From Symbiodinium natans (lineage: Eukaryota; Sar; Dinophyceae; Suessiales; Symbiodiniaceae), in contig CAJNDS010000447.1 of assembly GCA_905221605.1 (NCBI GenBank), positions 888,889 through 952,888 on the forward strand: a DNA stretch of 64,000 nucleotides, given 5' to 3'. The number at the start of each line of letters is the position of its first letter. Position 1 is the stretch's first letter. The notes under the pieces are model-generated. The model was given only the letters and a program-made list of their open reading frames with translations, ran no database searches and was not told the origin of the DNA. The position numbers and the translations under genes were made by a program. Positions 5,948 through 61,383 of this stretch are shown here, in pieces.

Positions 5948-5984
5948 GAAAACTCACCGGGTCAAAGGCAAGTTCAAACGTGGT

Positions 5985-6405
5985 CTGCACCTTTTGAACT
6001 TGAGAAGAGGTGCCCGTCTGCATATCTGAAACTTGTAGAAACGGTGCCCGTCTGCATCTCTTAAACTTGTAGAAGAGGTGCCCGTCTCCATCTCTTAAAC
6101 TTGTAGAAGAGGTGCCCGCTTGCATCTCTTAAACTTGTAGAACAGGTGCCCGTCTGCAACTCTTAAACTTGCACAGGTGCCCGTCTGCAGCTCTTAAACT
6201 TGTAGAAGAGGTGCCCGTCTGCACCTCTTAAACTTGTAGAACAGGTGCCCGTCTGCATCTCTTAAACTTGTAGAAGAGGTGCCCGTCTGAATCTCTTAAA
6301 CTTGTAGAGCAGGTGCAGGTCTGCACCTCTTAAACTTGTAGAACAGGTGCCCGTCTGTATCTCTTAAACTTGTAGAAGAAGTGCCCGTCTGCATCTCTTA
6401 GGCTA
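5985..6405. repeat. 34-bp minisatellite, left block
   Basis: About a dozen imperfect copies of a roughly 34-bp unit with core CTCTTAAACTTGTAGAAGAGG and GTGCCCGTCTGCA. Variation is mostly single-base (GAACAGG for GAAGAGG, CTGAA for CTGCA) with occasional shortened units. It begins immediately upstream of the 5' end of the minus-strand LINE coding region and continues on the far side of the telomere-like array, so the telomeric repeats interrupt one satellite block. No cas-like gene lies near and there are no unique spacers, so it is not a CRISPR array. Confidence 0.9.
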
Positions 6406-6411
6406 GGGTTT

Positions 6412-6680
6412 AGGCTTTGGGTTTAGGGTTTAGGGTTTAGGGTTTAGGGTTTAGGGTTTAGGGTTTAGGGTTTAGGGTTTAGGGTTTAGGGTTTAGGGTT
6501 TAGGGTTTAGGGTTTAGGGTTTAGGGTTTAGGGTTTTCGGTTTAGGGTTTTCGGTTTAGGGTTTTCGGTTTAGGGTTTAGGGTTTAGGGTTTAGGGTTTA
6601 GGGTTTAGGGTTTAGGGTTTAGGGTTCAGGGTTTAGGGTTCAGGGTTTAGGGTTTAGGGTTTAGGGTTTAGGGTTCCCGT
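6412..6680 (+). repeat. Interstitial telomere-type (TTTAGGG)n array
   Basis: About 35 tandem heptamers, mostly perfect TTTAGGG with interspersed variants (TTTCGG, TTCAGGG). TTTAGGG is the plant-type telomere repeat also reported from dinoflagellates. It sits inside the 34-bp minisatellite, which suggests a former subtelomere, a telomere fusion, or telomere DNA inserted at a break. G-rich strand is plus. Confidence 0.95.
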
Positions 6681-7195
6681 CTCCACGTCTTAAACTTGTA
6701 GAAGAGGTGCCCGCTTGCATCTCTTAAACTTGTAGAAAAGGTGCCCGTCTGCAACTCTTAAACTTGTACAGGTGCCCGTCTGCAGCTCTTAAACTTGTAG
6801 AAGAGGTGCCCGTCTGCACGTCTTAAACTTGTAGAACAAGTGCCCGTCTGTATCTCTTAAACTTGTAGAAGGGGTGCCCGTCTGAATCTCTTAAACTTGT
6901 AGAACAGGTGCAGGTCTGCACCTCTTAAACTTGTAGAACAGGTGCCCGTCTGTATCTCTTAAACGTGTAAGAAGTGCCCGTCTGTATCTCCTAAACTTGT
7001 AGAAAAGGTGCCCGCCCGTCTGTATCTCTTAAACTTGTAGAAGAGGTGCCCGCTTGCATCTCTTAAACTTGCACAAGAGGTGCCCGTTGCATCTCTTAAA
7101 CTTGCAGAAGAGATGCCCGTCTATCTCTCAAACTTGCAGAAGAGGTGCCCGTTTGCAACTCTAAAACTTGTAGAAGACGTGCCCGTCTGTAGCAT
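6681..7195. repeat. 34-bp minisatellite, right block
   Basis: The same unit as at 5985-6405 resumes in the same orientation directly after the telomere-type array, about 15 copies. The last copies (7080-7190) are more diverged and shorter, as expected at an array edge. From 7200 to 7500 the sequence becomes non-repetitive apart from a short duplicated GATGCYCATGATGCT; no gene seen there. Confidence 0.88.
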
Positions 7196-49994: not shown

Positions 49995-50530
49995 GCTCTT
50001 GATTGCTTACCACGCGCGCCTCCGTGCACGCAGGCGTCATAAGGCACAACAGAGCAACGAGGACGCAAGTCCCGGAACTCAGGCTTTTTTTTTGAACCGT
50101 CGCCTCTTTACTACATCAGCAGCGCAGTAGGCCGTCCTTGTGGGTCTCAACACTAGAGGTGAAACAGTCGCAGGCGCGAAAACCAAAGCAAGCACACACC
50201 AAAAACACCACCAAACACAACCACAAAAACCCGCAGCAACCCGCCAAAACCAAAAGCGCCAAACGTCTAGGTGTCCCCCGCGCTCAGTACTCGAAGTCGT
50301 CACAGAAAACCAGGTGTAATCAAGCAGCGCAGAGCATGCGGGGGAGTCGCAAAATGCGAGAGTTTGCCAGATCATCAAAACCACCATCATGAAGCCACTG
50401 GTGCAACGAAGGTCAGCACGGAAAGCTGTAAATCGAAGAAGGACAGCGAAGTTATCGACCAACACGGGCAGGTACCAGGCACACAGTGGCGAAAAGGGAA
50501 GGTACAGAGTGGCCAACTTTCCCAGAGGAG
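49995..50530. other. Flank between copia element and duplicated segment
   Basis: Continuation of the host sequence disrupted by the LTR element. It contains a T-run at 50,083-50,092 and A/C-rich sequence; open frames on both strands, no domain recognised. Confidence 0.4.
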
Positions 50531-50536
50531 AGGCAA

Positions 50537-50670
50537 GGCCAGCACGCGCCCCACGGCGGTCAGCCAGTGGGGACTTGTCAGCAAGAACAGCGGATGCAAG
50601 ACCAGCCCAGGGCACCCCATGGTGGTCAGCCAGTGGAGCAACCCCGAGCAACAGCCAACACAACTTGCGG
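50537..50670 (+). repeat. 134-bp direct duplication, copy 1
   Basis: GGCCAGC...CAACTTGCGG recurs 337 bases downstream (50,874-51,007) with a few substitutions. Each copy itself contains CATGGTGGTCAGCCAGTGG-like sequence twice. In plus-strand translation both copies encode the same peptide (VSQWGLxSKNSGCKTSPGHP), but in different frames because 337 is not a multiple of three. Confidence 0.85.
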
Positions 50671-50873
50671 CTCTATTATTGAAGCCCGACCCAAAGTTCC
50701 CAACACCTGTGCTCAGTCCGGCCACATACCCAAGTAGAACCTGGGGCCGCAGTCAGCAGAGCCCTCCTAGTTTCCCAGGGAGGAAGCCTGCGAGTAGCAA
50801 CAGCTACCGATTCCGAGGGGAAAGACTACCAGACAGCAGTCAAACCCTTACTCTGGCCCGCAGCAAGAGGAAA

Positions 50874-51007
50874 GGCCAGCGCGCGCCCCATGGTGGTCAG
50901 CCAGTGGGGACTTGACAGCAAGAACAGCGGATGCAAGACCAGCCCAGGGCACCCCATGGTGGTCAGCCAGTGGAGCAACCCCGAGCAACAGCCAACACAA
51001 CTTGCGG
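50874..51007 (+). repeat. 134-bp direct duplication, copy 2
   Basis: Second copy of the unit at 50,537-50,670. It forms the start of the ubiquitin-like reading frame. Confidence 0.85.
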
Positions 51008-51297
51008 TTCGGCCCACCAGAGAGTACCATATCATTTACGAAACTACCGGCGTCTATGTGACAGTGCATGAGTCGGACACCGTGCTCAGCATCAAAGATA
51101 TCCTGGCCGAGATGTTGTCGTTGGGTCGTCGCAGAATCAGCACTGATCAATTCTTTCTGGCTCAGCACAGATGGCTGCTGCACCCAGACATGCCGGTTCG
51201 GAATCTTCCCACCCAGCATCCCGTGGAGATTCAACACAATCCGTCCCGATGGCGCTGCAGCCAGAGACAGGCTCAGCCGGCCGCTCGCGTCGAGTAG
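50890..51297 (+). CDS. Ubiquitin-like domain protein, probably retroelement fragment
   Basis: 135 residues. After the duplicated N-terminal segment, residues about 40-118 resemble a ubiquitin fold: a first strand pair (YHIIYETTGVYVTVHE), SDTVLSIKDILAEML matching the SDTI..VK..I helix, STDQFFLAQHRWLLHPDMPVRNL matching DQQRLIF.GK.L.D...L, and a last strand HPVEIQ. Ubiquitin-like domains fused to retroelement or tandem-repeat proteins are plausible in dinoflagellates but this one ends early, without a C-terminal Gly-Gly. The true 5' end is uncertain because the upstream copy lies in another frame. It sits 180 bases left of the split-direct-repeat element and in opposite orientation. Confidence 0.5.
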   Translation: MVVSQWGLDSKNSGCKTSPGHPMVVSQWSNPEQQPTQLAVRPTREYHIIYETTGVYVTVHESDTVLSIKDILAEMLSLGRRRISTDQFFLAQHRWLLHPDMPVRNLPTQHPVEIQHNPSRWRCSQRQAQPAARVE

Positions 51298-51480: not shown

Positions 51481-51718
51481 TTATTGTTCAAAACCGTGCT
51501 TGTCTTGAAATGTCATGTCGTGTTCGAACACATCAAGCATGACACACTCTCCACCAAGCAACATGCATTCTGCTCACATCACTCGCTCACGTTCGAATCT
51601 TTTCACGTGGTGGGGAAACAGTACCGAGCACGGCTGGTTGGATCTCGATCCCTCCTGTAAGACCCAAGACTGTTGTTGAGTCTCGAAAAGTCCTGTGAGA
51701 CACAGGGCTCCTTTCCCC
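51481..51718 (-). repeat. Split direct repeat B2 (element 3' end)
   Basis: 238 bp, identical by eye to B1; marks the left boundary of the element. Confidence 0.93.
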
Positions 51719-51813
51719 TTCGAGAGGAAAATGTAGCTAACTCACTACCTCTCACAGGTTCGACCTAAGTGTGACGGCCTGAACAGAATACCCAGCAGGT
51801 TCAGAACGACAGG

Positions 51814-52218
51814 TCAAGAAGTTTCTGGCTGTCGCTGAGAGCTTGACGAGGCAGCTTCACTTGGCTGCTCCAAGTCAGGTTCAGGGTTCACAAACTGCCA
51901 CTGAGGTTGAAGAGCTGCAGCAGCCTCTCGTTGCTGCATTTCGCGGTCCTTCACGAGGGAATCCATATTCAAAGAGTGAAGCCACACTCGAAAATCATTC
52001 AGCTGATCTCGTGTCAACGACCGCGCCATGAAGCGTGCTGAGAAAAGTAAAGTGGTGGAAGAGCAATACTCGAGCCTTTTATGCATCAAACAGCAAACAA
52101 AACTGTCATCACGCAAAGTAAGGCCCGCGCTAACAAGGGTCCCTGATTGCAACACGCTCGCTGAGTCGCCTGGTCCCTTCCCGGATACTGCCACAACCTC
52201 TTGTGCACACTGAGTCAT
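51814..52218 (-). CDS. Small ORF between A2 and B2
   Basis: 134 residues on the element's strand; the second half, from MARSLTRDQLNDFRVWL near residue 64, looks coding, with a Gln/Glu/Ser-rich tail. It occupies the segment between A2 and B2, which other split-repeat elements usually leave non-coding. No family recognised; a short accessory protein or a chance frame. Confidence 0.35.
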   Translation of the reverse strand: MTQCAQEVVAVSGKGPGDSASVLQSGTLVSAGLTLRDDSFVCCLMHKRLEYCSSTTLLFSARFMARSLTRDQLNDFRVWLHSLNMDSLVKDREMQQREAAAALQPQWQFVNPEPDLEQPSEAASSSSQRQPETS

Positions 52219-52280
52219 CTCCTGACATAGTTGCGAAAACTCTCACATTAGTATACAAGGGTGGCGAGGGTGGGTTTTTC

Positions 52281-52533
52281 AAAATTGATCTATCAGCCTC
52301 TAAGAGCACTTTCCGGGCATCCTGCCCCTCGAGAGGTCCCGCTGCGACGGGTGTATACAGTAAGTACAACCCTGCATGAACAAGCATGAAACTGATCGAG
52401 CAGTGAAAATAAGTTGTGCAAAAAGACAAGCACTAAAACAACAAGCAAATGTTTTGTTCACTGCAACATTTTTGAATGTTGTTTCCTTTGAACAGTAAAG
52501 CTCTATCTTCTCCAGGTATTCGAAGAACGATAC
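52281..52533 (-). repeat. Split direct repeat A2
   Basis: 253 bp, about 97% like A1. It abuts B1 exactly at 52,533/52,534 (CGATAC|TTATTG on plus). Confidence 0.92.
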
Positions 52534-52771
52534 TTATTGTTCAAAACCGTGCTTGTCTTGAAATGTCATGTCGTGTTCGAACACATCAAGCATGACACAC
52601 TCTCCACCAAGCAACATGCATTCTGCTCACATCACTCGCTCACGTTCGAATCTTTTCACGTGGTGGGGAAACAGTACCGAGCACGGCTGGTTGGATCTCG
52701 ATCCCTCCTGTAAGACCCAAGACTGTTGTTGAGTCTCGAAAAGTCCTGTGAGACACAGGGCTCCTTTCCCC
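52534..52771 (-). repeat. Split direct repeat B1
   Basis: 238 bp, TTATTGTTCAAAACC ... CTCCTTTCCCC on plus; identical by eye to 51,481-51,718. Confidence 0.93.
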
Positions 52772-52789
52772 ATTCACCTGAGCCGTGCG

Positions 52790-53410
52790 TCAAACCTTCA
52801 GTTCCGAGGCTCTCTTTACAACCGCTGAAATGATCCTGCTCGCTTCTAGCGATTCGTCCTTGAATCCTAACTTCCTAACCAAATCAAGTTGGAACCTCGA
52901 AGGTTGATCTGCAAGATTCGCTGGGGAAGCAACCCTTGCATACCACGGTAGAAATCCGTGAACATATTCCAGGAAGTTTGCTTCATCCACCAACATTCCA
53001 GCGACTCCTTTCTTAGCAGATCCCGAGATGTAGGCGTGTCTGGCCGCATCGTTGTCGAGGTAGACGATTACTCCAGTTCCAGCAGTCGCTCCATGCTGGG
53101 AATACGATTCAGCAAAGGCTACAGTCTTACATGTCAGCAACTTCAAACCAATCAAAACCCCAAGCATCTCCAGCTCATAGATAATAGTTTGCTCTTCCTC
53201 TGTGGATAGCACCCGGGTTTGGGGTTCTGAGATCGGCACACTGAAGAACGACAGTGCTGTCCCACTCCCGGTAAGGAGCACACCACCTAAGCCACCAGAC
53301 CTTGTCTCGGTTTCGAAAGCTGCATCAGTAAGTATCATGAACGATCTGCATGACACCTGTCCCACCAACCTGGGCTGAGCAGCATCTAAGAACTTGCAAA
53401 AGTCTTCCAA
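52790..53410 (-). CDS. RNase H domain of the YR element
   Basis: 206 residues, DIRS-type RNase H: MILTDAAFE (first Asp), YELEMLGVLIGLKLL (Glu), VYLDNDAARHAY (Asp) and PANLADQPSR (last Asp). It degrades the RNA of RNA-DNA hybrids after reverse transcription. It overlaps the end of the RT frame by 25 bases, and the RT homology can continue into it by a -1 move near the GGCGGAAAA tract (about 53,434-53,442). It is the last gene before B1. Confidence 0.85.
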   Translation of the reverse strand: MEDFCKFLDAAQPRLVGQVSCRSFMILTDAAFETETRSGGLGGVLLTGSGTALSFFSVPISEPQTRVLSTEEEQTIIYELEMLGVLIGLKLLTCKTVAFAESYSQHGATAGTGVIVYLDNDAARHAYISGSAKKGVAGMLVDEANFLEYVHGFLPWYARVASPANLADQPSRFQLDLVRKLGFKDESLEASRIISAVVKRASELKV

Positions 53411-55986
53411 AAGGTCTTTGGTGTATCCCGGAATTTTCCGCCTCCCACCATAGCATGTCTCGTTATCTCAACCAGACATCTCCTGCCCAACCTTCCGAAG
53501 AACTGAGCTTGTGCAAACTGTAATCTGCCCCTCAATTGTAAGGCCTCCTTCTGGGCCATCAAACCATTCTCCAGGAAACCTCTGATGGCTGTGACCAACT
53601 CCCGACGCCTTCGTTCAGTGTTCTTGACTTTTAGGACCCCTGTCCCTGTTTGGTCCAGCTCAAACAAAACGCCCAAAGCTTCGAAACTTGTGCTCCACTC
53701 CGTAGTCTTGTCTGATGACAGCTTCCAACCTAACAGTTTCATGACCTCATCGAAAGTATACCCACATGAACTCCTGTCACCACTCAACGCGAGGAGAACA
53801 AAGTCGTCAAAGTAATTCGTCGTAGGGATTCTGGCTCCTTTCACCAGGATCGTCCAAAGAGCCCTCGCAACTCTCAAGAAGAAGTATACTGCTTTCGTGG
53901 AACCAAAAGGCACTGCCAGTTGCTGGAACAGTTTGGGCTTCCCCTCGATCGGGTCGTACACTGCTAAGTATGAAAATTTCAAACTCTCATCTGAAATGGC
54001 CAACTGTCGATAGGCGCTTTTCAGGTCAGCCGTCTTCCCGAAGAGTTCCAACAGTCCTTTTTTCCTAGCTGCCTTCGATAGCTTGGTAATTAGGAGTGCG
54101 ATCTCGTCAATTGAATGTGTAACAGGTTTCTCGGAGACGGTGACCGTGTCGTTAATGAGACTGGAAGAATAGTTGTCAATAGGTCGGAGTTTGCCTCCCT
54201 GCATCAGAGGGAAACGGGAACTCACCAAACAGCCTTTGGGGAGATGGCGAACGTCGAAAGGTCCTGCGAGATGACCCTTCTCAACCTCCTCTAACGTTTT
54301 CTCCCACAACAGCGTGTCCATGTTTCTAGCACCACTGGATATTGTCCTGGCGAGAATCTGTTCACACACCTGGTCGGACATGTCCACAAGTTGTTCAATG
54401 TCCATCCTGGCTGGCTTCAGTTTCGCATCCAAAACTCCTGTCACTGGGATAGGGCCTGTGAGCGTGGCTCCCTGAATGAGCTCCTGCACCACGCCCATAT
54501 CATCATATTGAATGTCTTGAAGCATTTCTTGGAAGAGGAGGATACGTTTCGGTCCAAGGATCGCTCCTCGATGGGTGGACATACCAGCCTTCAGCTGTGC
54601 CTCCTCTGGCTCCAGTTCTTTGGCTCTTCTAGCCCATTTCTCAAGGTAAAACTTTCTCTGGGATCTCACCGAACCTGGACGATGTACAAGTTGCTCGATC
54701 AACGTCTCTAATGGTTTGTTGCACTTAGACAGCTGATGATAAGGGTGTCCTAGCTTTGCTGCCTTTCCAATAAATTCAATCGGATCCCAAGGAATCCCCA
54801 CTCTCAGCACTGAGGCACCATCCAGTTGCTGCATTTCCTGCTGAAGCTGCGGGCTCAAGTTCCCCCCTGTCTGAGTCCGCGACAGAAGCTGGGAATCCAC
54901 CGGCAGGGCGGCCATCCCCGGCAACACTCGGATGCCATCCGGAATCCGCCACTCCTGCTTGAGACGCTTGCGTCCTGAGAAAGGGTCCTCAGTCACTGAT
55001 CTAGGCAGCAGCACATAGACGACCACCTTCCATTCCGGCATGACCTCATTCAAGTGCCCTCGAGGTTGGTGCATGGCCGACACTCGAATGGCCTTATTGG
55101 CCAAAGAAGGGTTTTGGCACAGAAGTTTTCTCGCTGTGACGCCAGCCGCGAAGACCTCAGCCAAAGCAGTCGCAAAACCTCGGGGGTAGGCCCCTGAGGA
55201 GGTCTCCAGTGTTGTCGACTTCCCTGCCGGTTCTCGCCCTTCGCGCCTAACCGTGGTGATTTCAGGAAGGTTCGACATCACAAAACTCCGCTGCTGACTC
55301 GCAGGGATCCAGCATCCCCACTCTACTTCGACCCAATGGGGTGCCTGCTGAGCGTCTGGAAGTTGGTTCAAATTATCCCAAAATGGGGACTTGCAAGAGC
55401 CTTCTACCACTAACGGCAAGTCCCTGTCGAGGCATCCATTGATAACCGCGAAAACAAATGCCGCAGAGATGGGGTCCAAGGTGAGCTTTGGTATGCAAAT
55501 CAGCACCCCCGCAATCTTTCGTTTGTCCAACCAAGTAAGAACAGAATCACAAGCTGTCCGAGAGGACAGGTCCATTTGCAAAACAGGTGCCATAGCGGAC
55601 TTGTGTTTAACACGATCCACTCCATAAGCAAAGTAACCCTGCGCGAGCAGAGCTGCAGCCACACGGGCCTGCCCAGCAAAACATTGAAGGATCGCACGGG
55701 TAGGTCCCCCGTGCTGTTCATTCGAGAAAACTTGTTGCGGCTCTGTAGCCGGAGAACACTGCTCGCTCCGAGAAGATGTCTCCTCGCCGGTCTGGAAAAC
55801 TGGCAGTGTTATGGCCGACGGCATTGAAGCCATCGAAAAAGAACATTCAACGTCACATTCACAACCTTCGGCAACCCCAACTGCAGATACGGGTTCCAAT
55901 CCCGCACCTGAAGGTAAGGCCTCCATACCGACCTCCTGGGTCGGAGCAGAGATGACGCCACTAACGGATTCATCCTGAGGAACCAT
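53386..55986 (-). CDS. MTase-like domain and reverse transcriptase of the YR element
   Basis: 866 residues. Residues about 95-235 resemble the SAM-dependent methyltransferase domain found in many DIRS-order and dinoflagellate retroelements (LQCFAGQARVAAALLAQGY, GVDRVKHKS, MDLSSRTACDSVL), but the catalytic Pro-Cys segment is replaced by CIPKLTLDP, so activity is doubtful. From about 590 is the RT: VSSRFPLMQGGKLRPIDNYS, KTADLKSAYRQLAI, QLAVPFGSTKAVYFF and catalytic NYFDDFVLL with FDD at 726-728, then LGWKLSSDKT. The frame is continuous with Gag through a single UGA at 56,035-56,037 (no other stop between), so it may be made by readthrough; the internal ATG at 55,986 is the alternative start. 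Confidence 0.88.
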   Translation of the reverse strand: MVPQDESVSGVISAPTQEVGMEALPSGAGLEPVSAVGVAEGCECDVECSFSMASMPSAITLPVFQTGEETSSRSEQCSPATEPQQVFSNEQHGGPTRAILQCFAGQARVAAALLAQGYFAYGVDRVKHKSAMAPVLQMDLSSRTACDSVLTWLDKRKIAGVLICIPKLTLDPISAAFVFAVINGCLDRDLPLVVEGSCKSPFWDNLNQLPDAQQAPHWVEVEWGCWIPASQQRSFVMSNLPEITTVRREGREPAGKSTTLETSSGAYPRGFATALAEVFAAGVTARKLLCQNPSLANKAIRVSAMHQPRGHLNEVMPEWKVVVYVLLPRSVTEDPFSGRKRLKQEWRIPDGIRVLPGMAALPVDSQLLSRTQTGGNLSPQLQQEMQQLDGASVLRVGIPWDPIEFIGKAAKLGHPYHQLSKCNKPLETLIEQLVHRPGSVRSQRKFYLEKWARRAKELEPEEAQLKAGMSTHRGAILGPKRILLFQEMLQDIQYDDMGVVQELIQGATLTGPIPVTGVLDAKLKPARMDIEQLVDMSDQVCEQILARTISSGARNMDTLLWEKTLEEVEKGHLAGPFDVRHLPKGCLVSSRFPLMQGGKLRPIDNYSSSLINDTVTVSEKPVTHSIDEIALLITKLSKAARKKGLLELFGKTADLKSAYRQLAISDESLKFSYLAVYDPIEGKPKLFQQLAVPFGSTKAVYFFLRVARALWTILVKGARIPTTNYFDDFVLLALSGDRSSCGYTFDEVMKLLGWKLSSDKTTEWSTSFEALGVLFELDQTGTGVLKVKNTERRRRELVTAIRGFLENGLMAQKEALQLRGRLQFAQAQFFGRLGRRCLVEITRHAMVGGGKFRDTPKTFWKTFASS

Positions 55987-56027
55987 CTCAACATCCTGAG
56001 CCAGCGAAGTCTCATCAAGACCAGGAT

Positions 56028-56040
56028 CACCTAGTCACAG
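56028..56040 (-). promoter_or_regulatory. Possible UGA-CUAG stop-codon readthrough site
   Basis: Gag ends CTG TGA CTA GGT. The same frame stays open after TGA and runs through to the MTase/RT frame. UGA followed by CUAG is a recognised leaky-stop context in eukaryotes and several viruses. Function here is inferred from context only. Confidence 0.5.
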
Positions 56041-57324
56041 CTTTTTAGGCTTCAGCGGGCACTTGGTAACCGGGTGGTCACCACCACACTTGTAGATGAT
56101 GCAACCATGATCACCCCTCTGACAATTGGCGTCCGTGCACCCGCCGAGGTTGAAACCGTAGCAGACCTTGTTGCCCTTCTTGTTCCATGCGGACGCTCCC
56201 TGGTAACGTAGGCCCTCGGGTAGCCATTCCGACTTGCCAGCCCCGTAACCTTTCCCTATGCCAGCCTTCTCCTTACCCTTGGGTGAGGGTTTGCCCTTTC
56301 CGGACCATGACTCGAAGCCCCTAGGGCTCCAAAAGGACTTCCCCTTGCCCGGCTTGCCTTTGTTCGGAGCATGCTCGTACGGATGACTACGGTTGCCTTT
56401 TCCCAATCGCAACTTTCCTCCACCTTCAAAATCCCCCAAAGGAAGGAGCGCAACGATCAAATCGTAATCCTGCAGCACCGAAGAAATCCTGGCATCCAAA
56501 GGCAAAGTCCCCGATGCGTCTGCACGAACCTCTGCTCCTGCCTCGGACATCTTTGCGAACGCCAACTTGTCAGCTCGCAGAATCTGCCTCAAGGAAACCT
56601 TACGGTAACCTTGTTGAGCTGGTTTGGTGAGGTACTTGAAAAGCGAGGAGACGTAAGCCTCATGCTTGTCCCAACTAATCAGCCTGGCGAATGCATATGC
56701 AACTCCCCGCCTTCTAAGGGCGTTTAACACCTGGAGGGATCCCTCTATATCACGATCTTCCATGCCAGAGGACTCCGTAACTTTGAGTTTTCCCCCTTCG
56801 AGGGAGAGGCTGGTGGTCAACGGCTTCAAGTTCTGAACTTCCTCCTCGCGGCTGTGGCATTTTTCCGGGCCAATGTACTTAAGGCATCGGTTTTCCCACT
56901 GCTGAACGGTCATGTCCAACAAGGCATGACTAGGCTCTAACTGGCCAGTCAGGGAAATCCCCGAAAGCTGAGTGCGCAACTGGTCCATGCGTGCATTACG
57001 CTCAGCGAGTCCCACCTTCTTAGGTGCAACACCCTCGGATGGTTCTGCCATGTCCTTAAGGGAGGCCACCAACATCGTCTGGGCCTCAAGAATCAACCGT
57101 CTCAGTGATGCCTTCTCGCCCACCGTAAGGTCTGCCAATACTGCTGTGCTCCATGTATCGAAATCCGATTGAGCCAGGAGTTGCCCCGGCTGGCCCACGC
57201 AAAAGGCTAACTGAGCCAAGGTTTTGACCCCTTTAGCAGTCAGTGCATCAACGACCCGCTTGGTCAGCAAAATCTCCTCTGCTCGCTGGAGGAAGTAAGG
57301 TGCCGAATCCACGGAACTTGTCAT
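56035..57324 (-). CDS. Gag of the YR element with CCCH and knuckle zinc fingers
   Basis: 429 residues, the capsid/nucleocapsid candidate. The N-terminal 270 residues are largely helical with no named motif. 300-385 is Gly/Lys-rich (GKGNRS, GKPGKGKSFW), likely RNA-binding. The C-terminus has a CCCH-like cluster (VCYGFNLGGCTDANCQRGDH, about 389-408) and a second C-x4-C-x3-H-x4-C cluster (CIIYKCGGDHPVTKC). A single C-terminal knuckle group after basic residues fits Gag. The ATG lies about 145 bases after the recombinase stop. Confidence 0.75.
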   Translation of the reverse strand: MTSSVDSAPYFLQRAEEILLTKRVVDALTAKGVKTLAQLAFCVGQPGQLLAQSDFDTWSTAVLADLTVGEKASLRRLILEAQTMLVASLKDMAEPSEGVAPKKVGLAERNARMDQLRTQLSGISLTGQLEPSHALLDMTVQQWENRCLKYIGPEKCHSREEEVQNLKPLTTSLSLEGGKLKVTESSGMEDRDIEGSLQVLNALRRRGVAYAFARLISWDKHEAYVSSLFKYLTKPAQQGYRKVSLRQILRADKLAFAKMSEAGAEVRADASGTLPLDARISSVLQDYDLIVALLPLGDFEGGGKLRLGKGNRSHPYEHAPNKGKPGKGKSFWSPRGFESWSGKGKPSPKGKEKAGIGKGYGAGKSEWLPEGLRYQGASAWNKKGNKVCYGFNLGGCTDANCQRGDHGCIIYKCGGDHPVTKCPLKPKKL

Positions 57325-57469
57325 GGCTGCTACAAGCTAGACGAGCCAAACAAACACTCGCAAGCGGAGACCTCACACCTGAGTCTACGCGATGGCATGA
57401 CAACAAACTCACCCTGATCTTTTCCAACGGAGCTCGTGCTCACCATTTCCCCATCAGGGGAAACTGGCA

Positions 57470-59201
57470 CTAAGAGAAACATTTAGTACACTGAGGATAA
57501 GCATGTGCCCTAACCAAAGGAACGCGGTGGTAATGATCTCCAAAAGCTCTACCGCACAAAAACAAAGCAGACCCAAGTGTGGTTCTGTGCAAGACCTGAC
57601 TCGTAGGGTGAGCCCAGTACAAGGGACTCTCCGAATTATCCTCCTCTGAATCAGAAGCATCTGAAACAACAGCCAAGGCAGCGTCCTGATCGTCGGCCGT
57701 GTCCCCCGGAGTGGTTTCATCATCTGCAGGTGCAACCGCGGCAGATTCCATGATCTTTTGACGGTTCCAGCCTTGAGCAAAGTGGCCGCTCCTAGTTTGG
57801 TCAGGAAAAAATTTTCCTGACGCAACCGCTTCCAGGATGATGATGTACTCACGCAACGCAGCACTCTGCAGCTCCCGACCGTACACCGCGTCTGATCCTG
57901 TAGCAGCGTCAGCGCGATGACCAAGAACACGCTTAGTCTCCCTCAGCATGCCGAATTTGGAACACCACACTAGGGTGGTCGAGAGAATGACTAGACAATG
58001 GCTTTTCTGAATCAGGACGAGGAAGTAGGAAACGCAGCCAGCGGGTCACTTCACTAGATGACAGGGGGTCCGAAGACCAGCTATAGGGCCGAGGGGCCGG
58101 CAGGAAGGGGACATCAATCCCATCATTCGGCAACCCAGCTTCATCTCTTAACTCCAGCAGCACCTGTCCCAACGGGACTTTAGCAATACCAATTCCCGGA
58201 ATCACCAAGGGAAGGATTCGGCGTTGCTGAGCATCAAGCCGTGAAGTTTTATGGTAGAGGGTACCTAGTTCAATGAAGCCGTGACTCCAATCCGCGCCAC
58301 TCTTGTCAATAATCAAAGGTTGAATACAACGAACATCAGAAGCCCTAGCCCTGCCATAGAGCATGGCCAGAAAATGAACTGCACCACATCTGTCAATAAG
58401 AGAGATGCCCTCATCCTGAGCGATTGCATGAAGCTGCAACACCTCGTGTACTTGCAGAGGGGGAGCCGGGTCCCATGGACTCTTGTTGGCCAGAGCTTTA
58501 GCCACCAGTCCGTTGACACGTGCACTCTGAAAAACCTCAAGACGTACCCGCAATCCCAGGGCATGATAACTCCACTTGATGGCCTTTAGACACGTATCCA
58601 AAGTGGATGCAGCCGTTCGGGGCAGCTTCAAGACGCAGTTGACAAAAGACCAAACGACCTTTTCAGGAAAAGGAGGAAGGTTCCCTGACTTCACCAGCCA
58701 TTCACAAAATGTGCGAATTGGCCCCACATGCTTCAAAACTGTGGCTGGGGATTTGCCAGCCAGAATCGCCTGCAATGAGTCCTGACCAGTCTCTGTATCA
58801 TCCTCCATCAGAGTGCACAAGTCAAAGAAACTAGCAAAGGATTGGAGCAAGAGCAAAACCTTCTGATAAGCTTCGTGCTGACGGTCTCTTGAGCTCGCCC
58901 CCTGACGGGCCTTAACTGCACGAGTCCAGGCCTGGCAGTGCGACGCCGCCTTATCTGATACACTTGTCGAAAACTGCGTGTCAGCGGTTGAGGCGGCCAT
59001 CGGTAGTGGTCTCCCACCCTGATAAGGCACGCCCAACCTTTGAGGGAACATCGCCTTCGTCGGATCAAAAATGCACAGCATACTCGGCTGTTCCCAAGGC
59101 TGGCTGGGCAAAGGCGAGCGTGCGTGGACGTGGTTACGAAAGCAGAGTTCAGTCTCGCTGGAGCTGGGGTCTCGACCGGACATGACGAAAAAGCCAATCA
59201 T
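57470..59201 (-). CDS. Tyrosine recombinase of the YR element (frame-broken)
   Basis: Two frames make one integrase of the lambda-integrase type. The first (59,201-57,933, 422 residues) has the catalytic-domain start LYGRARASDVRCIQPL, with the first catalytic Arg, and ends in SSHSL. The second (from 57,970) continues with TTLVWCSKFGMLRETKRVLGHR (the H-x-x-R/GHR region) and AVYGRELQSAALREY (nucleophile-region Tyr). Homology moves frame at TCTCTCGACCACC (about 57,979-57,991). The enzyme would join the circular DNA copy to the target. Its position upstream of Gag is unusual for the class. Either one indel has broken it, or the sequence has an error. Confidence 0.82.
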
Positions 59202-59387
59202 ACACTCCCCAGATACTATATGAACAATTGAGCCGACGCATCACAAAAGCAACAAATTGAGTTGTCCCTGCTGGAGAACTTGATGCATGTACAGAAAAGA
59301 CCACATTCACATGTGCAAACTCATTGTTTCCGATCTGCCCGATCGCTGCAGCCCGTGCTGTTCATACTAAGGGTCCGGCTCACCCTT

Positions 59388-60506
59388 TCAGCGAGGCCAC
59401 CCCACTGCTATGCCACGAAGCACAACATGCTTAGGCGAGAGCAGAAAATGCTCCCCAGAGCGCACTGAGCCCGCATCTCGGCATGCCGAATGGAGGTAGT
59501 CGTGTCCACCTTCCACCTGAGGGGTGGGCCCAGGAAGCTCAGCTTCCACCACCAGCATAGCCCCTCCGAGGGACTTTGCTCGGCTCGCTGTCTTCTTCAC
59601 AGCTGCCACCATGGCATCCTTCGAGTACCCCACCAGGGCACCACGAGCACTAAAGCCATAAGCCGGGAAGCCATCTTCCCGGTTGTCCCCCACAGTGATT
59701 TCTCCGCATTGGGCAACGCCAATCACCGAAGCAAAACTAGTGCCATGACACATCGTGGCCTGGCTGGCATAGTTGGCATCATGGACAAAGCTCGGTCCCT
59801 TGATGTTGCAGCCCACGAACAAAACGTTTTGGCCCGGGACATCAAAAGTGAGCATCTCCGGTCCAACCTTCTGGGCCAAATCACCATCGCCCTCCAGCGG
59901 GCGGCCGTAATGCCGGAAAGCCGCCATAATCGTGGCCATTCTTCCAGCCACTGCATCTGGCACCGAGAGGTGTGCCATGAGGGACTTACACTCCGAAGCC
60001 TCGGAAAATTTGGCCGCAATCTTGTACCAAGGGTACTTCCACCAGGGCTCAAGCTGCCCCTTCTCAACCAACTCACGTGCACTGAGAGGCCGATCCGTGG
60101 CCGCCCATGCAGCCGTGTTAGCCGACTCCCACAGGGCTTTGAGATATTCCCCGTCATCAGCGTCTTCATCCTCCAGGGTAATCTCATCCGTTTCAGCCTT
60201 CTCAGCAGCTGATTTCCGGGCCGCAGCTGCCCGAATCTCCTCGGGTGTGGCTTCCTTAACATTGTAACTCGCAGCAGGCCTGCCACGATCTTCCTCTGGC
60301 TTGTTCTTCTTCCAAGCCTCGTTCTGCCACTTATTCCATGGCTTTCGTTGGGGTTGCTTCCACTGAGACTTCCAGCTATCCTTCCAGCTGGAGGCTGCCT
60401 CTCGCCCCACGCCAAGCAAAGCTTGGGAGGCCGGTGGCTGCATCACCGGCACCTGTTGCCACACGTGCCCTGGGCTGGCCATGGGTAACGCAGGTGGTGG
60501 TGGCAT
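59388..60506 (-). CDS. First ORF of the YR element: ART-like domain
   Basis: 372 residues. The first 75 are Trp/Lys/Gln-rich (SWKDSWKSQWKQPQRKPWNKWQ), 80-130 acidic/Ala-rich. Residues about 210-355 resemble an ADP-ribosyltransferase-like fold: a conserved MCHGTSFASVIGVAQCGEI (HGT... followed by a G-x-I strand), FPAYGFSARGA, and later strands (AMLVVEAEL, HFLLSPKHVVLRGIAV). A similar HGT...L...G..V domain is, from memory, common in dinoflagellate repeat proteins. No catalytic Glu can be assigned, so activity is open. It is in the same frame register as the recombinase N-terminal frame and ends 187 bases before it. Its tie to the element rests on lying inside the A1-B1 bounds. Confidence 0.5.
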   Translation of the reverse strand: MPPPPALPMASPGHVWQQVPVMQPPASQALLGVGREAASSWKDSWKSQWKQPQRKPWNKWQNEAWKKNKPEEDRGRPAASYNVKEATPEEIRAAAARKSAAEKAETDEITLEDEDADDGEYLKALWESANTAAWAATDRPLSARELVEKGQLEPWWKYPWYKIAAKFSEASECKSLMAHLSVPDAVAGRMATIMAAFRHYGRPLEGDGDLAQKVGPEMLTFDVPGQNVLFVGCNIKGPSFVHDANYASQATMCHGTSFASVIGVAQCGEITVGDNREDGFPAYGFSARGALVGYSKDAMVAAVKKTASRAKSLGGAMLVVEAELPGPTPQVEGGHDYLHSACRDAGSVRSGEHFLLSPKHVVLRGIAVGWPR

Positions 60507-60700
60507 GGGCGGCGGTGCCGTCTACGGGGTGGGGTGCTCCCACGGCTGCGTTCCGTCCTCCTGGACCTACGCCGACCCCTTGAACGATCTCTCGTTCGCT
60601 CTCTTGAGCGCGAGTCTGAGCTGCTGCGCCGCCTACGGCGACTGCTCCGGGACTCTGTCCCAAAAGGTGGCATCAATGGCCATGGGTACATCTGGCCCAC
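60443..60700 (-). CDS. Short Arg/Ser-rich reading frame in the element's leader
   Basis: 85 residues: SRSSRRRRRSSSDSRSRERTRDRSRG, then RRSRRTERSRGSTPPRRR. It overlaps the start of the ART-like ORF in another frame. RS-rich tracts occur in splicing proteins; here it may be part of the same product before a frame break. 60,701-61,130 holds nothing recognised. Confidence 0.3.
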   Translation of the reverse strand: MGQMYPWPLMPPFGTESRSSRRRRRSSSDSRSRERTRDRSRGRRRSRRTERSRGSTPPRRRHRRPCHHHLRYPWPAQGTCGNRCR

Positions 60701-61130
60701 CAGGCACCTGCCTTCGTGTCACAGGTTTCCGTGCTCCTGCACAAAATGCCCCGGCGAGTCACGCCCCAAACTAAGGTTTTGGGCCAACGAAACACAAATA
60801 TTTCACGAGCACTTGCTGCAAGGACCACATCTGTGCATACCACCGATACTCTGCGGCGCCGATCCTTCCTTTCCTTGTTGATACACATCAAGTGTTTGCG
60901 AGGCTCTTCTCGGCCGGCCCTCGTGGGCTCTACGCTTTTCATGAGAGCACTTCTGGCTCGAGCTTTCGGCTCAGAATCAAGACACGACCTAGGTCGTGTG
61001 ATCAAACTTACACAAAAAAGCAAGCCTCAAAACGATTCTCCAAAACTGCACTGCATCACAATGCACATGAGTCTGTCACTCGTGAGGTCGCAAAACAAGT
61101 GCACTCCTTTTTCTTTTTTTTTTCACGTGG

Positions 61131-61383
61131 AAAATTGATCTATCAGCCTCTAAGAGCACTTTCCGGGCATGCTGCCCCTCGAGAGGTCCCGCTGCGACGG
61201 GTGCAAACAGTAAGTACAACCCTGCATGAACAAGCATGAAACTGATCGAGCAGTGAAAATAAGTTGTGCAAAAAAACAAGCACTAAAACAACAAGCAAAT
61301 GTTTTGTTCACTGCAACATTTTTGAATGTTGTTTCCTTTGAACAATAAAGCTCTATCTTCTCCACGTATTCGAAGAACGATAC
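61131..61383 (-). repeat. Split direct repeat A1
   Basis: 253 bp, AAAATTGATCTATCAG ... GAAGAACGATAC on the plus strand; partner of 52,281-52,533. Confidence 0.92.

Follow-up and report, generated by a model that had tools for sequence, protein, structure and literature searches.

A probable family of tyrosine-recombinase retrotransposons in Symbiodinium natans with the recombinase ahead of Gag

A 64,000-nucleotide stretch of the genome of the dinoflagellate Symbiodinium natans (contig CAJNDS010000447.1, positions 888,889 to 952,888; hereafter the window) carries on its minus strand, at 51481-61383, what is very probably a defective copy of a multi-copy family of tyrosine-recombinase (YR) retrotransposons of the DIRS order, which would insert by way of a circle and the YR. 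The full layout of the family is A1-alpha-beta-ORF1-YR-Gag-Pol(RT-RNase H)-B1A2-delta-B2, where RT denotes reverse transcriptase, and it can be read as two tandem cassettes. To our knowledge, YR retrotransposons are classed by their repeats and gene order, and those of dinoflagellates are little described. YR ahead of Gag is common to several families in this genome, a conserved gene can lie in the spacer enclosed by the split repeats, and a 5' repeat is present in one copy despite its spliced-leader relict, so that an end-restoring role of the internal B1A2 becomes directly testable.

The copy in the window

The original prediction described this locus as a split-direct-repeat YR retrotransposon in which B1 and A2 are adjacent, and both the repeats of the window copy and the layout of other copies bear this out. 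The A repeats (61131-61383 and 52281-52533) differ at 6 of 253 positions and the B repeats (51481-51718 and 52534-52771) at 0 of 238; B1 and A2 abut directly at 52534/52533, and the minus-strand layout is A1-ORFs-B1A2-spacer-B2. No inverted pairs of at least 60 bases were found for the element; the repeats are direct. Nor are they a product of chance, because the joined B1A2 (491 bp) recurs in the genome: a search of 759 Mb in 2,543 contigs (C-numbers below; WIN is the window copy) gave 164 candidates, and the 40 that were scored are 93-100% identical. The parts of the window copy are as follows.

61131..61383, minus strand: A1 repeat, left end of the element, terminal GTATCG
60522..61130, minus strand: 5' leader, shortened in this copy
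59388..60521, minus strand: ORF1 (the 5' ORF), conserved C-terminal domain with HGTS motif
57470..59240, minus strand: YR, in two frames overlapping at 57936-58045
56035..57336, minus strand: Gag, with a Cys/His zinc-knuckle-like tail (judged by eye)
53386..56034, minus strand: Pol, an N-terminal part of no assigned kind followed by the reverse transcriptase (RVT_1)
52790..53467, minus strand: RNase H part of Pol, a separate frame in this copy, assigned by motif
52534..52771, minus strand: B1 repeat
52525..52542, minus strand: B1/A2 joint GAAC-AATAA/GTATC-GTTC (boundary after AATAA), with the element ends at its center
52281..52533, minus strand: A2 repeat
51814..52029, minus strand: delta, small conserved ORF in the A2-B2 spacer
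51481..51718, minus strand: B2 repeat, right end of the element, terminal CAATAA

Several defects mark the window copy. The reading frames of its YR and Pol are disrupted; genome-wide, Pol is a 1,081-aa frame without stops, RT and RNase H together, in 19 of 55 Pol rows. In addition, its leader is short by about 1.23 kb, only 22 bp separating A1 from the shared leader, compared with 1,250 bp in C1970, 1,252 bp in C280, and 1,027 bp in C2404. The missing stretch encodes alpha (88 aa, coiled-coil-like) and beta (172 aa).

Gene order among other copies

When the DNA around eleven other joints on ten contigs was examined, seven of those contigs being oriented, the order leader-ORF1-YR-Gag-Pol-RNase H-B1A2 was found to be kept in five copies (C2404, C484, C280, C66, and the outer copy of C2375), two of which, C66 and C484, are truncated at the 5' end. 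The C1970 copy has retained ORF1 and YR but has lost an internal part of Gag-Pol, the C2446 copy is without YR, the C1413 copy is interrupted inside RNase H, and C1805 and C1808 hold Pol parts only within the 10 kb examined. Protein searches of the whole genome gave 55 rows for Pol, 75 for YR, 100 for Gag, and 103 for ORF1, from which 54 Gag loci were tabulated, a YR being counted if it lay no more than 4 kb upstream on the strand of Gag. A recombinase preceding Gag, as had been claimed for the window, is present at 46 of these loci, and the complete series YR-Gag-Pol-B1A2 at 31. Seven loci have no YR row and one has the YR downstream; the latter, in C2375, belongs to a shortened copy nested in the leader of another. 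Similarly, 39 of 40 ORF1 loci have a YR as the next gene downstream within 3.5 kb (the other is C2446), so that the layout with ORF1 ahead of both YR and Gag, when compared among copies, proves common to many of them.

The same order extends beyond the family. In the C602 family, whose YR is 47-48% and Gag 63% identical to those of the window-element family, the plan starts with A1 (193 bp), an ORF that looks coiled-coil-like by eye, and a relative of ORF1 (25% over 131 aa, E 7e-5, HGTSF retained) and continues with YR, Gag, B1 (276 bp), A2, delta, and B2; the Pol search gave no row for C602, its Pol stretch being unread and an RNase H-like end before B1 being recognized by eye only. At the more distant loci C2096, C956, and C1241 (YR 35-40%, Gag 37%), the YR is upstream of Gag too. 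The YR-before-Gag order is a family-wide and perhaps a clade-wide trait. The prediction had attributed it to moved or swapped modules, and the unusual order does recur in many copies; since shuffled YR and Pol ORFs were published for Symbiodinium in 2018 (PMC5890265), gene order alone is not new.

A nesting of the YR and 5' ORF, as a separate element, within a Gag-Pol retrotransposon would accord with the broken frames of the window copy, the real copy-in-copy nesting at C2375, and the 8 of 54 Gag loci without an upstream YR row, but this highly improbable reading is refuted by the order across copies, given that the YR is directly upstream of Gag at 46 of 54 loci and next to ORF1 at 39 of 40 and that the second family shows the same placement of ORF1, YR, Gag, and split repeats.

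Two other arrangements were observed. Contig C1000 holds four B1A2 joints spaced 12,045, 12,907, and 12,045 bases apart, with Pol, YR, Gag, and ORF1 rows repeating in step; this looks like a tandem duplication of elements plus host DNA, or an assembly effect. The C2404 element lies inside a GGAATC-type repeat, which resumes only after 166 bp more of A that follow its B2.

Insertion and a possible RNA step

Both ends could be read in 12 copies (WIN, C280, C1970, the nested C2375 copy, and eight of ten further ones, the other two having no A1 found at the expected place). The termini are GTATCG...CAATAA in all 12, with no target-site duplication and no evident target consensus. Empty sites for the joined flanks of the window copy are present in C1288 (99%, 297/297 bases) and C2064 (98%, 282/297). 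The sequence of both is GCATTACCGGTTTC, which equals the flanks of that copy (GCATTAC/element/CGGTTTC) put together without gain or loss; three more rows match at 81% across the joined flanks. The same exactness is seen in the nested insertion in C2375. Insertion is therefore exactly conservative.

At the B1A2 joint, 4-bp inverted arms are centered on the element boundary in the window-element family and in C602, whose joint is GAAC-AATAA/GCTGC-GTTC (boundary after AATAA). The joint of a third family (C461 and C804) is without such arms. Being of just 4 bp and found in two related families, the arms are faintly suggestive of a YR core site. B1 and B2 are identical or one mismatch apart in all eight copies compared.

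Evidence bearing on an RNA step comes from C2404, in which 249 bp of A1 run straight into GCCATTTTGGCTCAAG and then into leader sequence that, in C280, stands right behind an AG. GCCATTTTGGCTCAAG is the 3' part of the dinoflagellate spliced leader CCGTAGCCATTTTGGCTCAAG, as given in PMC6616646. Among the DNA examined, this 16-mer occurs at one other place, in C1413, within apparent repeated DNA and away from element joints. The 16-mer alone is thus not decisive; its position, exactly between A1 and the post-AG site, is telling and suggests an RNA intermediate for the element. Furthermore, trans-splicing should have removed A1, yet A1 precedes the leader relict, which suggests, for this one copy, that A1 was restored from another copy of the repeat such as A2. 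The spliced leader as a regular feature of copies was rejected, as it is present in one only.

Taken together, these results lead to a model for the element. In this model, the element would be transcribed and its RNA trans-spliced to the spliced leader, and Pol would make cDNA. The internal B1A2 copy would supply the sequence for restoring the ends, A1 presumably from A2, and a circle with a B/A joint would form. The YR would then act at this joint and insert the circle without target-site duplication or evident site consensus, the B1/A2 joint being presumably a copy of the circle joint that the YR uses. ORF1, alpha, beta, and delta would also have roles in the cycle.

The encoded proteins

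The element appears to combine an RT, an RNase H (by motif), and a YR, the combination that marks the DIRS order. In the YR, the positions R, K, H, H, and Y are invariant in 23 aligned relatives, a Pfam SAM-like integrase domain is found in 3 of the 23, and the UniRef label "Tyr recombinase domain" is attached to 3 of 43 relatives. RVT_1 in Pol has an E value of 1.2e-5, below the curated cut-off, and is present in 15 of 17 relatives. Where an organism is given, the relatives of the element proteins come from Symbiodinium or Durusdinium. A search for related loci in viral contigs gave nine pattern matches, none of them a relative.

Several observations weigh against this assignment or against the proposed cycle. 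The usual YR motif at the second residue pair is HxxR; here it is HSLK in 23 of 23 relatives. PF00589 matches only 1 of the 23, with an E value of 0.23, yet it matches the YR-like ORF of another element in the same genome at 5e-9. Pfam finds nothing in the element ORFs but RVT_1, itself below its cut-off, and profile searches of PDB gave no YR or RT match, only meaningless ones. Finally, the spliced-leader joint described above is unique in the genome by exact-pattern search.

A DNA methyltransferase (DNMT) in the N-terminal part of Pol had been suggested by eye and was rejected. No methyltransferase was found in the element by Pfam, nor by hhalign comparison of the Pol N terminus with a 7-sequence C5-methylase profile, adenine methylases not being profiled; none of the 117 PF00145 rows in the genome overlaps a Pol row.

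ORF1 had been predicted to resemble an ADP-ribosyltransferase (ART) and to precede both the YR and Gag. Its position is as predicted; its identity is ART-like at the level of one motif block, HGTS, and even this is to be taken with reserve. The ORF1 query has no Pfam match, and four scattered single-member matches (E 0.05-0.8) were seen. In hhalign against 12 PARP segments from the same genome, ORF1 gives a probability of 29% and a score of 31.5, with an alignment firm over about 18 columns at HGTS, and the probability rises to 35% once C602 is added. As controls, 60 column shuffles score no higher than 21.7, and the reversed sequence scores 9.9. However, an unrelated DNMT profile scores 26.6 (4.4%) against ORF1, not far below the PARP score, which weakens the ART reading, and global alignment of ORF1 with PARPs fails. 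An N-terminal part rich in Arg and Ser is present in longer ORF1 copies and in several relatives. A full-text literature search joining DIRS, retrotransposon, and ADP-ribosyltransferase found no publication.

Two further observations concern ORF1. One relative, P0003, is split by sequence that does not match, and the protein carries a precomputed PF00078 match; apparently, another retroelement has been inserted in ORF1. In addition, the search gave about 50 ORF1-like rows at 33-50% identity outside the window-element family, several of which (e.g., C570, C2096, C1024, and C1892) lie about 9 kb ahead of a delta row, so that ORF1 and delta apparently stay paired in further families, too.

The ratio of nonsynonymous to synonymous change (dN/dS) between copies, obtained by the method of Nei and Gojobori, is 0.09-0.40 for alpha, 0.04-0.41 for beta, 0.07-0.31 for ORF1, 0.12-0.31 for YR, 0.02-0.13 for Gag, and 0.06-0.48 for Pol, the upper values stemming from close pairs with few changes. 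Given these low ratios, all of these ORFs, ORF1 included, look like working parts. The synonymous distance between C280 and C2375 varies by module (alpha 0.15, beta 0.22, ORF1 0.45, YR 0.13, Pol 0.11), and that of Gag is 0.05 between WIN or C66 and C2375; the subfamilies look like mosaics.

Delta and its solitary units

The spacer between A2 and B2 contains delta, a conserved ORF that starts with MARSL and has 81 aa in other copies and 71 aa in the window, where 10 aa are missing in frame. The whole spacer frame of 142-152 aa was rejected as a gene, since constraint is confined to its last ~82 codons: there, dN/dS between copies is 0.04-0.26, as against 1.1-1.9 in the first part and 0.58-0.92 for the frame taken whole in diverged copies. 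The genome contains 107 matches to delta, ranging in identity from 100% to about 35%; no Pfam match is convincing (best E 0.027). Judging from the dN/dS ratios, delta is a conserved gene under purifying selection inside the split repeats. The third family, C461 and C804, has the series B1-A2-delta-B2 (with a partial B1 of 113 bp in C804), and its A and B sequences have no detected match to the window-element family; its main spacer block, the delta block, is 83% identical to that of the window-element family, and so the delta spacer has apparently been transferred from one family to another.

The A2-spacer-B2 region has 38 full-length matches, eight of which are solitary, that is, without an adjoining B1. 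All eight have exact outer ends and an open delta, and their short flanks gave no blastn match to the element pieces tested. Another eight delta loci, with a 110-aa frame, were rejected as solitary units, as two that were read belong to the third family with B1-A2-delta-B2.

Two routes to the solitary units can be considered. The somewhat favored one is homologous recombination between A1 and A2 of full copies, in the manner of solo long terminal repeats: A1 and A2 are long and nearly identical, and the units occur at the identities of different subfamilies. Four Pol copies without a scored joint were also read past Pol. C2211 has Pol-B and then unrelated DNA, the single B that a B1/B2 exchange would give; in C97 and C1721, B runs into just 64-65 bp of A before similarity stops; and C2527 has no element match beyond Pol. 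The clean flanks and exact ends of all eight units might be held against recombination, but either route would give them. The other route, which we consider rather doubtful, is a two-cassette element, A-[YR, Gag, Pol, others]-B plus A-[delta]-B, in which the YR would recombine B/A joints and the delta cassette would be separately mobilized and exchanged between families.

Other features of the window

A direct repeat of 145 bp (96%) is located at 50529-51010, just beyond the element on its right side. Far from the element, at 6404-6675, there is an interstitial array of 39 telomere-type TAGGGTT units with 34-bp tandem repeats on both sides (whole region 5983-7189).

Comparison with known elements

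The original prediction saw in the window the signature of PAT and Ngaro elements; the split direct repeats agree with it, and the PAT methyltransferase and the Ngaro gene order do not. The distinct dinoflagellate lineage of YR elements that it also proposed may exist. Published elements are compared below from passages of the papers cited. PAT-like elements (Pat1, Toc, Kangaroo) share the split direct repeats, and Pat1 has a zinc-finger Gag (PMC4157794). The internal repeats of nematode Pat1 and of Kangaroo separate the methyltransferase from the YR, which puts the YR beyond B1A2 (PMC4157794); in the window family, in contrast, no methyltransferase was found, delta rather than the YR lies beyond B1A2, and the YR is ahead of Gag. 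Ngaro-like elements share A1-ORFs-B1A2B2 and the lack of a methyltransferase domain (PMC8547959, PMC4157794), and Cafeteria is reported to have isolated AB repeats of Ngaro (PMC8547959). However, their order is Gag, RT/RNase H, YR (PMC8547959, PMC4157794); the window family has the YR before Gag and a gene in the spacer. DIRS1-like elements have inverted terminal repeats and are modeled to insert at an identical 3-bp sequence (PMC3266345); the repeats of the window family are direct, and no identical 3-bp target sequence is visible, the target bases varying among copies.

In VIPER, the YR is upstream of RT. VIPER and TATE of kinetoplastids share with the window family the arrangement A1...B1-A2-B2, three separate ORFs, and a trans-splicing host, and SIRE, which in T. 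cruzi is the A2-B2 region of VIPER, is like the solitary A-delta-B units (PMC6681497). The VIPER ORFs are listed as Gag-like, YR, and RT/RNase H (PMC6681497). Compared by description, the window family has the B1-A2-B2 pattern at its 3' end and lacks the Gag-YR-RT/RNase H order, its YR being before Gag; delta and ORF1 are unmentioned for VIPER in the cited text (PMC6681497).

The closest comparison is with Symbiodinium itself, in which A-coding-B-A-B repeats, two DNMT-bearing SymbioDIRS-Dnmt3 structures, and shuffled YR/Pol ORFs were described in 2018, along with DIRS elements without DNMT (PMC5890265), the one paper on such elements in dinoflagellates that was recognized in full-text searches. 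The host group, A-coding-B-A-B repeats, separate YR ORF, and shuffled YR/Pol order are all shared; the window family differs in that no DNMT domain was found in its Pol and in having extra 5' ORFs and a spacer gene. It is possible, if on balance unlikely, that the window family is a DNMT-less cousin of one of these two structures and represents merely extra copies, as the shared repeats, the shuffled order, and the DNMT-less DIRS of Symbiodinium would suggest (PMC5890265). A locus in the same genome, C557:1459500-1464499, is of the DNMT-bearing DIRS type, with DNA_methylase (1.1e-8) in a 1,209-aa ORF, Phage_integrase (5e-9) in the next ORF downstream, and RT and RNase H by eye (Pfam RVT_1 finds none). 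Its YR is downstream, and it has no detectable similarity to the window family: its large ORF has no blastp match to the element proteins below E 0.49, and its YR has none below E 1.1, profile searches giving E 0.17-0.18. This comparison by sequence covers one of the two published DNMT-bearing structures. Furthermore, "Gag" is absent from the main text of PMC5890265, its figure apart.

The cited passages on related elements mention neither a gene in the spacer nor one resembling ORF1, which is not proof of their absence. Three features go beyond the gene order: the conserved delta gene inside the split repeats, its solitary units, and an A1 that stands ahead of a spliced-leader relict.

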